Source: a bacterium (lineage in GTDB: Bacteria > CSSED10-310 > JAJRTK01). From it: a stretch of DNA of 11,668 bases. Made by a program: the position numbers and the translations under genes. The notes beneath the pieces are model-generated. The model was not told the origin of the DNA and made no database searches. It saw only the letters and a list, made by a program, of their open reading frames with translations. The stretch spans positions 1-11,668 of the forward strand of contig JAJRTK010000297.1 of the NCBI GenBank assembly GCA_024278345.1, given 5' to 3'. Of the stretch, positions 212 through 5,520 are shown one piece after another (within the stretch, counting starts at the first letter, position 1; the number at the start of each line of letters is the position of its first letter).

Positions 212-1192
212 GTGAGCGACAAGATACTGGTCGTTGTGGAACACCAAAATGGGCAAGTGGGCCGAATGACGTGGGAGAACGTCGCCCTTGCCCAAAAGCT
301 TGGGGCAGCCCTGGGAATCGGCGCCGGGGCGCTGGTTTTGGGAAGCGGAGCAGAGGCTGTAGCCCGGGAACTCGCCACGAAGAAGCTCGCCGAGGTATTG
401 CTCGTGGAGAACTCCCACTTGGCCACGATGACTCCCGAGGGTTTCATCAAGGCGATTTCTCAGGTCGTGGAGCAGGAGAGCCCGCGATTCCTGGTCTTTG
501 GCCAGAATTCCATGGGCCTCGATCTCGCTGCCCGCCTTGCGGCGAGGCTGGACCGTGCCTGCGCTACGGATGTCAATGGCTACCGGGTGGAGGATGGCAA
601 GGTCATCTTCACCAAGGGCGTCTACTATGGGAAGCTGTTGTCGGATTTGGAGTGTCAAGGGGATGCGCCTCACGTGATTTCCACGGCTCAAGGGGCCTTT
701 GTGGCCGATGATGCCGAGGCTGGTGAGGCGCCCATCCGCCAGCTGAACGTGACGCTTGCCGAAGAGGACATTCGCCGGAAGGTGCTGGGCCTCATTTCTC
801 AGATGAAAGGCGGCGTCGATCTCACGGTGGCGGAAGTCATTGTTGCCGGTGGCCGGGGCCTTCAGAAGCAGGACAATTTTGGGATGATCGAGGATTTGGC
901 CGCTGCCCTCGGGGCGGAGATTGGTGCTTCCCGTCCCGTGGTTGATGCCGGTTGGCTGTCGCGGGAGAGGCAGGTGGGATCGTCGGGACAGGTGGTGAGT
1001 CCCAAGCTATATATCGCCGTGGGGATTTCCGGGGCGATGCAGCACCTTGTGGGCATGAAGGGCTCCAAGGTCATCGTGGCCATCAACAAGGATCCCAACG
1101 CGCCGATTTTCGACGTGGCCCACTACGGCATCGTCGATGATTTGTTCAAGGTGGTTCCGGCGCTGACGGAGGCGATCAAGGCCCGGGGTTGA
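212..1192 (+). CDS. etfA: Electron transfer flavoprotein alpha subunit
   Basis: Complete 326-aa protein, normal length for EtfA. Residues about 4-185 form the ETF alpha/beta-type N-terminal domain. Residues about 205-322 are the FAD-binding domain, with VAGGRGL (211-217), GASRPVVDAGW (238-248), QVGSSGQVV (254-262), the ETF-alpha signature region LYIAVGISGAMQH (266-278) followed by VAIN (289-292), and NKDPNAPIF (292-300). A Met replaces the usual Ile/Val in SGAMQH, a mild change. EtfA holds the redox FAD and with EtfB passes electrons from dehydrogenases to ETF:quinone oxidoreductase or a similar acceptor. The start is GTG at 212, chosen because GGAG lies 7 bases upstream (201-204) and the protein begins at the expected first strand (DKILVVVEH). 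The last 20 codons are copied at 2168-2230, which makes this gene the source or left edge of a direct repeat. Confidence 0.96.
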   Translation: MSDKILVVVEHQNGQVGRMTWENVALAQKLGAALGIGAGALVLGSGAEAVARELATKKLAEVLLVENSHLATMTPEGFIKAISQVVEQESPRFLVFGQNSMGLDLAARLAARLDRACATDVNGYRVEDGKVIFTKGVYYGKLLSDLECQGDAPHVISTAQGAFVADDAEAGEAPIRQLNVTLAEEDIRRKVLGLISQMKGGVDLTVAEVIVAGGRGLQKQDNFGMIEDLAAALGAEIGASRPVVDAGWLSRERQVGSSGQVVSPKLYIAVGISGAMQHLVGMKGSKVIVAINKDPNAPIFDVAHYGIVDDLFKVVPALTEAIKARG

Positions 1193-1265
1193 TAGGCCCG
1201 TGGCGACCGGGAAGGAGCCGGGGTAAAGCGTCAGGCCGGATCTTGACAGACACCAAAATCGGTGG
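1128..1265 (+). repeat. 138-bp direct repeat, left copy (etfA tail plus downstream spacer)
   Basis: This segment aligns without gaps to 2166-2303. The first 58 bp, which include almost all of the last 20 etfA codons, are identical. The remaining 80 bp (end of etfA and intergenic DNA) carry 14 differences, giving about 90% identity overall. The pair brackets a segment of about 900 bp (1266-2165) that holds one lower-GC gene. A weaker match may continue past the edge with a 7-bp length difference (GTTGTGAAC at 1286-1294, GTTGTGAGC at 2317-2325). No inverted terminal repeats of an insertion sequence and no integrase are seen. Confidence 0.9.
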
Positions 1266-1271
1266 CAGAAT
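1243..1271 (+). promoter_or_regulatory. Possible sigma70 promoter in left repeat copy
   Basis: TTGACA (1243-1248) is followed by a 17-bp spacer and CAGAAT (1266-1271, 4 of 6 matches to TATAAT). The -35 box and spacer lie inside the direct repeat and the -10 lies just outside it, so this looks like a copy of the tRNA-Gly promoter with a new -10. It could transcribe the secreted-protein gene at 1465. The leader would be nearly 190 nt long and would include the palindromic element at 1364-1451. Confidence 0.5.
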
Positions 1272-1363
1272 TCGCCTGCGCCGCGGTTGTGAACATCAGT
1301 TCGTTTCTGAAGAAAGGTGGGGATCCGTCAAACCGGGTTTGCAACTTCAGCGTGACACCAGGA

Positions 1364-1451
1364 AGCCGGGACGGCGCTGCACAGGCATGATGCCTGTGCA
1401 GACGGCGCGGGGAATTGTAAAGCAGAAACACGACGATTTGATGGATCCCGA
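1364..1451 (+). repeat. Dispersed palindromic element, copy A
   Basis: This element contains a perfect 25-bp palindrome at 1377-1401 (12-bp arms CTGCACAGGCAT and ATGCCTGTGCAG around one base) and a downstream 39-bp block at 1413-1451. The same organisation occurs in opposite orientation at 5283-5375. The 39-bp blocks match at 35 positions. The palindromes differ by a paired change: the A1383-T1395 pair is C-G in the other copy. It resembles the short interspersed palindromes scattered between genes in many PVC and Acidobacteria genomes, which can be mistranslated as small ORFs. The downstream gene starts 13 bp after the element. Confidence 0.8.
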
Positions 1452-1464
1452 AAGGTGTCATGTT

Positions 1465-2067
1465 ATGTTGACCTTCAGAAAGCCGATACCTACCACGTTG
1501 TTTTGGGTGGCCTTGGTCCTTCCGGCTTCGGCTTTTGCTCAGAACCGTGAGCAGGCTCGGTCGCAAGAACAAAAATCCTTTCAGTTACAGTCCGTTGCCG
1601 AACGTTACGCTGATGTCGCTATCCGTTCCTTGGAACTGGTTCCGATGCCCAGTGCTCAAATTGATGGACAACCGGCTCCCTATCAGCTTCGTGTGACGAT
1701 AACCAATCTTACTTCTTCGGTCATCGAGCGTGTTCACTTGAAAGTCGAGGTTTGGCGTCCTGACAAAACGCTTCGAAGTTTCTTGGGGTTTTCCGTTGGA
1801 AATCAGTTGAAGCCTGCCAAAGAAACCTATATCGCGATGCTTGTGCGTGGCATTGAATTGGAAAACGGTGATGTCGTCCAGGTTGGTATATGGGATGATG
1901 TTCAGTTTGAGGCCATGCGGAGCCCTCTTTCATGTCAAATATACTGTGACCTTTGCGAGGCGCGAGCAATGAGAATATGCGGTGGCAGTGGAATTAATAG
2001 CTATAGCTGCTCGTGCGATGGTAATAACCGAAGATGCTCCTTTAGCTGTTTTCCTCCACCCCTGTGA
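1465..2067 (+). CDS. Secreted protein of unknown function with eight-cysteine tail
   Basis: 200 aa. The start is ATG 1465, with AAAGGTG at 1451-1457 at good spacing; it gives a clear signal peptide: MLTFRK, a hydrophobic core (TTLFWVALVLP), then ASAFA with likely cleavage after residue 25. The open frame continues upstream to 1189, but that part runs through the direct repeat and the palindromic element and reads as non-coding. Residues about 40-150 alternate polar and hydrophobic residues with TITNLTSS and VHLKVEVWRPDKT, suggesting a beta-sandwich exported domain. All eight cysteines lie in the last 48 residues (157, 161, 164, 172, 182, 184, 191, 195), an even number fitting disulfides; the tail ends FPPPL. 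I do not recognise the family. Base composition is lower in GC (45-48% in two counted lines) than in etfA (57% in one line). Together with the flanking direct repeats this suggests the gene was inserted between etfA and tRNA-Gly. Confidence 0.75.
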   Translation: MLTFRKPIPTTLFWVALVLPASAFAQNREQARSQEQKSFQLQSVAERYADVAIRSLELVPMPSAQIDGQPAPYQLRVTITNLTSSVIERVHLKVEVWRPDKTLRSFLGFSVGNQLKPAKETYIAMLVRGIELENGDVVQVGIWDDVQFEAMRSPLSCQIYCDLCEARAMRICGGSGINSYSCSCDGNNRRCSFSCFPPPL

Positions 2068-2079
2068 TTTCCTTGTGGC

Positions 2080-2101
2080 GCCTGGATGGTCCGGGCCTTT
2101 T
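2080..2101 (+). terminator. Weak candidate terminator after the secreted-protein gene
   Basis: GCCTGGA (2080-2086) can pair with TCCGGGC (2090-2096), including one G-U pair, around a 3-base loop. It is followed by C and four T (2098-2101). It begins 12 bp after the stop codon. The short T run makes it weak. Confidence 0.4.
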
Positions 2102-2165
2102 GGGGGAGTTCGGGGCCAAGTCTGAAATGAGCCCATCCGGGTCGGTGCCGCCTCACGGCCAGATT

Positions 2166-2230
2166 GCATCGTCGATGATTTGTTCAAGGTGGTTCCGGCG
2201 CTGACGGAGGCGATCAAGGCCCGAGCCTGA
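2166..2230 (+). pseudogene. etfA 3'-end remnant
   Basis: The frame at 2168-2230 encodes the last 20 residues of EtfA (IVDDLFKVVPALTEAIKARA) with a TGA stop; only the final residue differs from the real protein. No start codon, ribosome-binding site or upstream EtfA sequence precedes it; the bases before 2166 are unrelated. It is a non-functional duplicate piece, useful as a marker of the rearrangement. Confidence 0.85.
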
Positions 2231-2303
2231 TAGGCCGGTGGCGGTCGGGAAGGAGCCTGGGAAACGCGTCGAGACAGATCTTGACAGACGCCAAAATCGG
2301 TGG
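2166..2303 (+). repeat. 138-bp direct repeat, right copy
   Basis: Second copy of 1128-1265, same length and no gaps. It carries the tail of etfA without the rest of the gene, then spacer DNA that leads directly into the promoter and gene of tRNA-Gly. The ancestral order was probably etfA, spacer, tRNA-Gly, with the secreted-protein module now sitting between the two copies. Which copy is native cannot be told from this window alone. Confidence 0.9.
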
Positions 2304-2309
2304 TTAACT
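2281..2309 (+). promoter_or_regulatory. Promoter of tRNA-Gly
   Basis: A perfect -35 TTGACA (2281-2286) is followed by a 17-bp spacer and TTAACT (2304-2309). The -10 box is poor (3 of 6) but lies 14 bases before the tRNA, as expected. The tRNA-Phe promoter in this window has the same TTGACA and 17-bp layout. Confidence 0.65.
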
Positions 2310-2478: not shown

Positions 2479-4767
2479 CTAGGGAGCGGGAACTTGTGGC
2501 GGGCCGCCGGTTTGCCATTTGCGCGCCAGCTCTCGGAGTTCATCGATCCGGCGGTTGGCGGCGAGGCTTTTTCTGAGATGCCCGCTGGCCTCAAGGCGGT
2601 GGATTGCCTTTTTTACAAGGGCATGGGCTTCTTCAGGAAGACCCGATATCAGGATCGGTAAGGCCAACTTGGAGAGCACGGCCACATTGAGGTCACGGTA
2701 AGGAAGGAGTCTGACGATTTCCAAGGCCGCCCGGGCCCGGGCTTTGGGCGATGGCTCGAAGGCGAGGAGCTCTTGGAAGATGTCGAGCTTTTCCCGCGGT
2801 CCGATGGTAGGACGTTGGCCCAGGCCGTGGAGGATTTCCAGGGCTAGGGATACGCGGTTTCGGCCCGCCAGCATTCGTGCGTATCGAAGTAAAACCCAGC
2901 TCGGGGGACTTGGGTTGGCCGTCAGTTTTTCGAATTCCACAAGGGCTGGAGCGACCAGTCCCGAGCCAGCCAAGAGCTCCGCGTAGATAACCTGATCTTC
3001 TAGGGAGGCATCGAGGATGAGCTGTCCGAGCAGGGCCGGGTTGATGCTGATTCTTCGAAGGGCGTGGAAGAGCCGGGGCAGGAGTGACGGCCGGATCCCC
3101 ACGGCGATTCGGAATTCCTTCGCCGCCAGATCTTGCCGGCGGAGGTCGAGCCAGTTGTGGCCCGCGGCGATCCGAATCAGGGCCGATTGGGGTTGGAGCC
3201 TTTCCGCCCAGGCGAACAAGCTGGAGGCCCGTTGAGGCCGGCCCCGGTATCGGGAGATCTCCGCCAAGCGGTAGAGAGTCCAGGCGTCAGTCGATCCCCG
3301 GGTCAGGATCTCCAGGAGCGGTCGTTCCGCCCGAAGAACGCCTCGATCCCGGGCGATCCGCGCCCAGCGGAGCTCCAGATCCGACAAGCGGTGAAGCGCT
3401 TTTTCGGGCCAGAAGGCGAGCTCGGTGGCGCCTTGGTAGCGATCAACTGCCCGGGGCCACTGGAGATGCCGTGCGAGGTCGTCCCCTGCCGCAATGTAAA
3501 GTTCCGAAGCCAGGCTTTTCACGCCGATGATGAAGAGAAGAGTCGCCACCGTCCAGGCTGCCGCCTTGGCCATGGGTCCCGGTAGCCTTGGTGCTCGGTT
3601 CTGGATAGAGAGTCCACCTCTCTGCTGGCATTGACCGGAAGCCGCCAAAAGAAGTGCCAGCCAGGGCAACAGCCGGAGTGTGGCTGTCTGCTGGGATGGC
3701 GCAACCGCCAGGCTTCCCAAGACCACCCACAGAGATGCGCGTCGTTGCACGGGCCAGATGGAGCGCAGGAAAAGTGCCATCAGCCCATACCCGATCCACC
3801 CGTGGTCCAGCAGGAAGAGCGTGGCAGGGGATAATTCCGCTGGTGGCGAGAGGCTGGAGAGGGCCTGATCGCCAAGGAAGGAAACAGAGTAGACCCCCGG
3901 CCCGAGCCACGGATGGGCCGCAAGATCTTGAAGGCCGGCGACCTGGACGCGCCACCAGCCATCGAGCTGTTGCAGAGCCCGGATGGCGGAGTCGTCCGAG
4001 AAAATACGTGGATCGAGAATCCCAAGAAGAACCAGATGCCCGGCGACAACGAGCAAAGGTGTCCACTGCCCGAGCGCCAGGACTCGTCTCCCGGGACGAT
4101 GCGCTGTTGCCCGGAGAGCCTGGGCTCCGGCCAGTAGGGCAGAGAGCATCCCCATGAGCACCAGCGAGGGCGAGAGAGTCCCATGGACGACTGGCGAAAG
4201 AAGGAGAAAAGCCCAGGCCACAAACTGGATGGCACTCCGATTCGGGCCACTCCGGAGCCAGGCGATGCTGGCCAGAAGAACCGCTGGAAACCCGTCCTGC
4301 ATCAGCCCCGCAAAGTGAATGATGGAGGCAGCCACCGATAACCCTGCCCAGAGCTCGGGGCGGGAGGCGCCCGTGATGACTTGATTTTTCGGGTATTCCG
4401 GTTTCCATGGGCCCAGGACCAGGACGGCCGCGAACAGAAGCCACGGGACCATACCGGTCCACCAGATCCGTGGCCAAGAGAGGAGGAGCCCCGACGGCAG
4501 TAGAAGAAACAGGAGGAGCGGCAAAAAGGCGCGAGGGGAAATCGAGACTTGCGAGGCCGAGGAAAAAGGGAGAAGGAGTAGGGCAAAACCCAGGAGGGCG
4601 GAAGGATAGAGAGCCACATCGGGAGCGATCAGGAGCCAGGAGACCACGGCAACTTCCCGAAGCCCCACTGGGAGTTTTCTCCGGGAGATGTTCCAGGCTT
4701 GGACCAAGCCCGGGATAGGTCGGGGAGCTGTCCCCCCGTCGGCCGCGTGAGAGGAAGTCAGGTTCAT
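2479..4767 (-). CDS. O-antigen-ligase/polymerase-like membrane protein with C-terminal TPR-like domain
   Basis: 762 aa. The N-terminal 420 residues hold about ten or more hydrophobic segments (for example 40-66, 79-97, 105-119, 199-217, 233-252, 311-338, 345-356, 363-377, 402-420). The segment WWRVQVAGLQDL...HPWLGPGVYS (271-294) matches the conserved pattern of the Wzy_C/O-antigen-ligase superfamily, an Arg followed by a P-x-G-x-G loop; a hydrophobic segment with DHGWIGYGL (321-329) follows. Residues about 425-750 are helical, Ala/Leu/Arg-rich repeats like TPRs, probably facing the periplasm. Members of this superfamily join or polymerise glycans carried on lipid; substrate and exact role (WaaL-like ligase or polymerase) cannot be read here. 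The ATG overlaps the stop of the upstream gene by 4 bp (ATGA), so the two are translationally coupled. No glycosyltransferases are adjacent, so it is an orphan outside any visible polysaccharide cluster. Confidence 0.82.
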   Translation of the reverse strand: MNLTSSHAADGGTAPRPIPGLVQAWNISRRKLPVGLREVAVVSWLLIAPDVALYPSALLGFALLLLPFSSASQVSISPRAFLPLLLFLLLPSGLLLSWPRIWWTGMVPWLLFAAVLVLGPWKPEYPKNQVITGASRPELWAGLSVAASIIHFAGLMQDGFPAVLLASIAWLRSGPNRSAIQFVAWAFLLLSPVVHGTLSPSLVLMGMLSALLAGAQALRATAHRPGRRVLALGQWTPLLVVAGHLVLLGILDPRIFSDDSAIRALQQLDGWWRVQVAGLQDLAAHPWLGPGVYSVSFLGDQALSSLSPPAELSPATLFLLDHGWIGYGLMALFLRSIWPVQRRASLWVVLGSLAVAPSQQTATLRLLPWLALLLAASGQCQQRGGLSIQNRAPRLPGPMAKAAAWTVATLLFIIGVKSLASELYIAAGDDLARHLQWPRAVDRYQGATELAFWPEKALHRLSDLELRWARIARDRGVLRAERPLLEILTRGSTDAWTLYRLAEISRYRGRPQRASSLFAWAERLQPQSALIRIAAGHNWLDLRRQDLAAKEFRIAVGIRPSLLPRLFHALRRISINPALLGQLILDASLEDQVIYAELLAGSGLVAPALVEFEKLTANPSPPSWVLLRYARMLAGRNRVSLALEILHGLGQRPTIGPREKLDIFQELLAFEPSPKARARAALEIVRLLPYRDLNVAVLSKLALPILISGLPEEAHALVKKAIHRLEASGHLRKSLAANRRIDELRELARKWQTGGPPQVPAP

Positions 4768-5249
4768 GGGTGGTGCTTTTTGCCCTCAAGGCTTGAGGCT
4801 ACCTGACTTGCGGGGGCCTCCGGGGCCAGCCACTGAGGAAGCGGCGCATGGTGGGGAAGGAGAAGCTCGGTCTCTGGAAGGGTGGCGCGGTTGAGAATTC
4901 GTTCCAGATCCTCCACGCTCACCGGTCGCGCCGCCGAATTTTTGGGCAGAAGCTCCATCTGCACCAAGATCTGGTAGGGTGAATCAGGTAGATTCCGATT
5001 CCGCATTCGGTATTGGAGTCCCAGTATGGGAACTAAAAAGCGCGCCAATTCCCTGTAAGTCACGGACGCACTATCATTCTTAGCACCTTGTGCGATCTCG
5101 GCCAACAGGCGGTTCCCCTGTTCCGCTTGCCCAAGGGCGTGGTGTCCGAAGAGTTCCAGGGTTTCCCGCGAGGTTTTCGCCTTCGGAGGATCGGCGCATC
5201 GGGGTGTAAGAACGGCGAAAAGTCCCAACAAAAGGCCAAGGCGCCCCAA
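4764..5249 (-). CDS. Small exported protein coupled to the O-antigen-ligase-like gene
   Basis: 161 aa if started at TTG 5249. That start has an upstream AAGAAAGG and begins at a short signal-like segment (MGRLGLLLGLFAVLTPRCAD). The frame is open to ATG 5489, but the extra 80 codons run through the palindromic element at 5283-5375 and are rich in Cys, Arg and Pro, so I regard them as non-coding. The mature part is polar, with a helical stretch (RETLELFGHHALGQAEQGNRL), a segment FLVPILGLQYRMRN near the middle, and a Pro-rich end. The single Cys after the hydrophobic stretch does not fit a lipobox well. I do not recognise the family. The 4-bp ATGA overlap with the next gene suggests the products are made in step and may act together at the membrane. 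Confidence 0.65.
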   Translation of the reverse strand: MGRLGLLLGLFAVLTPRCADPPKAKTSRETLELFGHHALGQAEQGNRLLAEIAQGAKNDSASVTYRELARFLVPILGLQYRMRNRNLPDSPYQILVQMELLPKNSAARPVSVEDLERILNRATLPETELLLPHHAPLPQWLAPEAPASQVASSLEGKKHHP

Positions 5250-5282
5250 GTTCCCGGCCTTTCTTCTTGGCTGGAAGAAGAA

Positions 5283-5375
5283 TCGGGACCGATCAAATTG
5301 TCGTGTTTTTGCTTTACAATTTTCTTCGCCGAAACGGTGGCACCGGCATCTTGCCGGTGTAGCGTCCTCCGGGCT
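5283..5375 (-). repeat. Dispersed palindromic element, copy B
   Basis: Inverted second copy of the element at 1364-1451. The palindrome CACCGGCA/TGCCGGTG lies at 5341-5359 around three bases. The conserved block of 39 bp lies at 5283-5321 (35 of 39 identical to 1413-1451), and the outer part resembles copy A over about 20 bp. On the minus strand it sits in the leader of the gene starting at 5249, in the same orientation relative to its gene as copy A. The change from an A-T to a C-G pair in the stem keeps the hairpin. Confidence 0.8.
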
Positions 5376-5520
5376 GCACGGAGCCGGGAAGGAGGCCCGC
5401 CCCAGCGGTGATGTTGTCAACTGGATCTGATAGGTCCCGAAGAATCTGGCCGTCGCTCTTTTGGGAATGGCGGTTTTCATGAACATCACCCCGGAATTTT
5501 ACCCGCGCCGGTTCCAACGA

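Follow-up and report, generated by a model that had tools for sequence, protein, structure and literature searches.

An orphan gene between 138-bp direct repeats at an etfA/tRNA-Gly junction: a possible case of one-off insertion with duplication

The window analyzed here, meaning the whole stretch of 11,668 nucleotides, is contig 223 of a 6.06-Mb assembly that comprises 550 contigs, is 87.9% complete, and appears by its look to be metagenome derived. On its plus strand, it carries a complete etfA gene encoding the alpha subunit of electron transfer flavoprotein (positions 212 to 1192), which matches PF00766 and PF01012 well above the cut-off and has one match in the genome, and a tRNA-Gly (GCC) gene at positions 2324 to 2399. 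The nearest genomes compared were related at the level of the phylum only, with etfA identities of 32 to 45%, and no tRNA gene adjoined etfA at any of the 14 related loci that were inspected.

As the initial annotation had claimed, alignment and self-BLAST (E = 7e-49) both identify a pair of plus-strand direct repeats between these genes, at 1128 to 1265 and 2166 to 2303 (138 nt, gap free, 90% identical, with a spacing of 1,038). Each repeat corresponds to the 65 nt that close etfA, stop codon included, and the 73 nt that follow. Copy 1 contains the functional etfA tail, the spacer, a -35 box, and a 17-bp promoter spacer. Copy 2 contains a presumably displaced fragment of the etfA tail that lies outside any gene and lacks the rest of etfA, followed by the spacer and the putative -35 region of tRNA-Gly; it stops directly 5' of the tRNA-Gly -10 box. 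The repeat does not extend leftward of the etfA tail, and its right edge falls inside the putative tRNA promoter, beyond which weak gapped similarity may extend up to the beginning of the tRNA (shuffle P = 0.02). The earlier description of the repeat as etfA tail plus spacer is thus correct for both elements but incomplete, since the 3' end appears to be the core promoter of tRNA-Gly. The accompanying argument that this is no transposon target duplication stands, given that the repeat is 138 bp long and that no inverted repeats were found at the ends of the insert (shuffle P = 0.64).

The sequence between the repeats spans 900 bp (1266 to 2165), 138 bp of which are a MITE together with one extra copy of its target. 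As previously described, it holds a single gene of lower GC content, here called X (1465 to 2067, plus strand), an orphan encoding 200 amino acids. A frame of 200 open codons would arise by chance with a P of 8e-5 at the local composition, and the X frame has the best codon score of the six. Its GC content is 49%, relative to ~60% in the surroundings, and, with a GC3 of 0.49, it ranks in the bottom 2.7% of 439 similar-sized open reading frames (ORFs) of the same genome. AAAGG is located nine bases 5' of the ATG at 1465. The X protein consists of a signal-like N terminus, a predicted beta-rich middle, and a C-terminal segment with eight cysteines in approximately the last 45 residues. The N terminus, likely cut after AFA, and the cysteines were read directly from the sequence rather than with a predictor; they agree with the initial proposal of a cysteine-rich protein that is apparently secreted.

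A single-sequence fold model of X had a mean pLDDT of 58, a low confidence at which no fold can be named, and Foldseek returned no match to it at E < 0.001. Nothing convincing was recovered as a relative of X in Pfam, NCBIfam, PHROGs, PDB sequences, phages, plasmids, IMG/VR, or GTDB contigs; in the genome that carries it and 59 further genomes from inside and outside the same phylum; or in 396 genomes from the phylum of a Sulfopaludibacter-named metagenome-assembled genome. The two best weak matches were translated and rejected, as neither yielded a cysteine-rich relative. The 98 bp behind X (2068 to 2165, plus strand), which end at a presumed nonhomologous joint at 2165/2166, had no similar sequence that could be found elsewhere in the genome.

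The last 23 bases of the repeat are TTGACA plus the 17-bp promoter spacer. At copy 2, these bases form part of TTGACA, 17 bp, TTAACT (2281 to 2309, plus strand), with the -35 box beginning 43 nt 5' of the tRNA. Since TTGAC is present 43 to 50 bases 5' of 5 of the 6 tRNA genes sampled in ~0.5 Mb of the same genome, including tRNA-Gly, the tRNA-Gly promoter very likely resides in copy 2. At copy 1, the corresponding sequence is TTGACA, 17 bp, CAGAAT, the -10 box being preceded by TG (1243 to 1271, plus strand; 10 of 12 consensus matches), and it is the only promoter-like match between 1000 and 2500 (shuffled sequences average 0.6). Given that CAGAAT fits the consensus better than does TTAACT at the tRNA copy and that no other promoter-like match is present in this region, X is probably driven by the duplicate of the tRNA promoter.

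The leader of X contains a degenerate, 130-bp MITE copy with the ends GGGATCC ... GGATCCC (1320 to 1449, plus strand). A perfect 8-bp target duplication, GAAAGGTG, flanks it on the left at 1312 to 1319 (alignment and direct reading) and on the right at 1450 to 1457 (direct reading; both plus strand), with the right copy restoring the ribosome-binding site of X. The element therefore inserted at this ribosome-binding site, which the duplicated bases preserved; before the insertion, ~60 bases separated the -10 box from the X start codon. The family has a 154-bp consensus with the ends GGGACCTATCA, a central hairpin, CACCGGCAAGATGCCGGTG, and at least two subfamilies, and 8-bp target duplications were observed at several full-length copies. 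Its right end has 159 matches in the genome, relative to 0 for a control pattern, which corresponds to ~160 copies. The 1320 to 1449 element thus combines the features by which a MITE is recognized, namely, terminal inverted repeats, a duplication of constant length, many copies, and a lack of coding capacity. The family was not found in seven other genomes of the phylum. The MITE probably fragments the assembly, as many of the contigs start or end in it.

The statement that the cassette includes no transposase or integrase held for the main ORFs of the window as analyzed with hmmscan, but the insert does contain mobile DNA in the form of this MITE, with its GAAAGGTG duplication. We considered the MITE as the source of the 138-bp repeat and rejected it, since its own duplication is 8 bp and it is located inside the repeats. 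A second copy in the window, at 5285 to 5438, is flanked by the target duplication GATTCTTC. A reverse-strand ORF listed at 4764 to 5489 starts upstream of this copy and runs through it, so that its N-terminal part is partly MITE derived; the true start of this ORF is probably downstream of the MITE insertion.

The 14 mismatches between the two repeat copies fall at 1186 to 1252 (copy 1 coordinates), with 0 in the 58 positions of etfA codons, 13 in the 57 positions of the spacer, and 1 in the 23 positions of the promoter. If placed at random, all 14 would spare the first 58 bases with a chance of 2.9e-4, and a mismatch-free run of at least 58 bases anywhere in the repeat would occur with a chance of 0.004. 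This distribution fits constraint on the coding tail and the promoter of both copies, as would be seen in two working junctions that diverged separately. Since a copy 2 that had arisen in place would need no etfA codons, and its coding part would be expected to drift as the spacer did, both tails probably diverged as working gene ends. Given that the mismatches spare the codons and the promoter and crowd the spacer, two diverged junction alleles are favored over a neutral in-place duplication, for which a mismatch-free tail would be unlikely without gene conversion. We therefore lean toward a one-off insertion with duplication at the etfA/tRNA-Gly junction by a foreign allele carrying X, a reading that we believe has about an even chance of being correct.

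The GC3 of X, which is unusual for the genome, was also counted in favor of this reading, as was the position of the right repeat edge inside the putative tRNA promoter, with the weak similarity that may lie beyond it. Counted against the two-allele model was the absence of synonymous differences in the tail, where ~3 would be expected by a rough estimate (chance of ~0.03). Searches of databases and of genomes no closer than the same phylum found no donor, empty site, or relative of X. Furthermore, the same mismatch picture would result if gene conversion had acted after an ordinary duplication. The duplication could be old and have arisen in place through an error of repair or replication, with X captured between the copies and the etfA tails later homogenized by gene conversion as the spacers diverged. 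Such a history requires no donor for the repeat, and the identical block is accounted for just as well by gene conversion across the first 58 bases as by the allele model, but two processes have to be invoked; we consider it possible, if on the unlikely side. The mismatch pattern supports homologous recombination between two diverged alleles of the junction, in line with the insertion that the initial annotation had suggested, though not uniquely.

In the favored insertion with duplication, the donor would have been DNA from a diverged relative that carried an etfA tail, a promoter-bearing spacer, and then X. This DNA would have paired with the resident etfA tail, with homologous recombination sealing one side and the other end being joined nonhomologously inside the resident tail, at 2165/2166. 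Alternatively, a donor circle of ~1 kb may have entered via one crossover. The combination of one homologous and one illegitimate joint has been documented in bacteria, as has circularization with a subsequent single crossover (PMC3240628); gene displacement through events of this kind has been proposed for Vibrio cholerae (PMC5361080). Either route would leave etfA with a whole 3' end and strand the resident tail downstream as a useless fragment, if the displacement ran in the direction that we infer. The tRNA-Gly gene would retain its own promoter, and X would acquire a copy. The MITE would have jumped into the X leader at a later step, its target duplication saving the ribosome-binding site.

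The flank at the 2165/2166 joint shares no run with etfA upstream of the tail, an observation that also bears on whether strain variants were falsely joined in a metagenome-assembled genome. The assembly consists of 550 contigs, and the 58-bp identical block is near common assembly word lengths; however, even a false join would require reads that bridge 2165 and 2166, and the flank has no long overlap with the upstream part of etfA. An artefact of this kind is accordingly improbable in our judgment.

The initial annotation had offered a mini integrative element as an alternative, which in its nonautonomous form would use the etfA tail as its core and an integrase encoded elsewhere. A restored gene end together with direct repeats is the usual anatomy of such an island. 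However, neither the ORFs nor hmmscan revealed a recombinase in the window, and the similarity runs beyond the end of etfA across the spacer and enters the tRNA promoter, more sequence than an attachment site needs. The cassette is also a single copy: no second genomic site of the insert was found, and no comparable cassette was present elsewhere in a sample of 1.0 Mb (81 contigs) of the same genome. With terminal inverted repeats at the insert ends and, in the searches above, a relative of X also lacking, this proposal found no support, and we regard it as having little chance of being right.

The only other two-copy local direct repeat in the 1.0-Mb sample is the L204 pair, a fragment of a paralogous protein gene. 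Its copies, at 484 to 763 and 1438 to 1717 (280 bp, 91%), represent a gene fragment beside an apparently intact paralogue, which we take to be Uma2-like. The remaining local repeats in the sample are either repeat arrays or elements dispersed in many copies, the MITE among them. One of the dispersed elements, at 335 to 529 and 3212 to 3407 of L152, is ~195 bp long with the inverted ends GGCCTTGGTCAT ... ATGACCGAGGCC; it has ~38 matches in the 1.0-Mb sample, and one copy splits an apparent transposase gene.

Mobility without a recombinase of its own is conceivable, because the cargo of the microcin H47 island moves in this manner (PMC3191183). A recombinase-less cassette would rely on the host to excise and integrate it via its long imperfect repeats, and the locus resembles the H47 island in its long imperfect direct repeats, small cargo, and lack of a recombinase (PMC3191183). 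However, there is no sign that the cassette has been excised or has spread, nor of a second cargo, and either the insert at this site or X itself is old enough to have received a MITE that subsequently decayed; we therefore see only a slim chance that this reading applies. In its minimal form, the cassette would bring along a gene tail and a tRNA promoter that serve as homology arms, allowing it to enter etfA/tRNA-Gly junctions via homologous recombination without damage and to place its cargo under a strong constitutive promoter, a scheme that we likewise hold to be a long shot.

If the favored insertion with duplication is true, the locus would be a clear natural case, from a phylum that has been poorly sampled, of a gene acquired via one-sided homology; the incoming gene would also have gained a duplicated tRNA promoter, with the host gene and tRNA left unharmed. 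It would provide a useful search pattern, although a single case with an orphan gene settles no open question.

Integrative elements such as e14 in icd, which rebuild the 3' end of a protein gene, similarly leave an intact target end and a copy of the tail at the far side; in contrast, the locus described here has no integrase, and its repeat extends through the spacer and the tRNA promoter. The 1320 to 1449 element resembles bacterial MITEs in its 154-bp consensus, terminal inverted repeats, 8-bp duplications, and high copy number, and it is a passenger in the insert rather than the cause of the 138-bp repeat. Like the cassette, the microcin H47 island combines a small cargo and long imperfect direct repeats with the absence of an internal recombinase gene, but it measures 13 kb and has been shown to excise and integrate, whereas the cassette measures 0.9 kb and gave no sign of mobility (PMC3191183). 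In the displacement proposed for type VI effector-immunity modules of V. cholerae, an upstream anchor and a new module move part of the old gene downstream (PMC5361080); here, the gene is that of a housekeeping flavoprotein, its displaced tail is useless, and X is no recognized effector or immunity protein. Homology-facilitated illegitimate recombination (HFIR) has been reported in Acinetobacter, pneumococcus, Pseudomonas stutzeri, and Escherichia coli (PMC3240628). Relative to HFIR, the product alone is seen here, from which a donor and an event would have to be reconstructed, and the homologous parts are themselves diverged; the likeness would be in the pairing of one homologous with one nonhomologous joint, the insertion of foreign DNA, and the possible duplication of a flank (PMC3240628).
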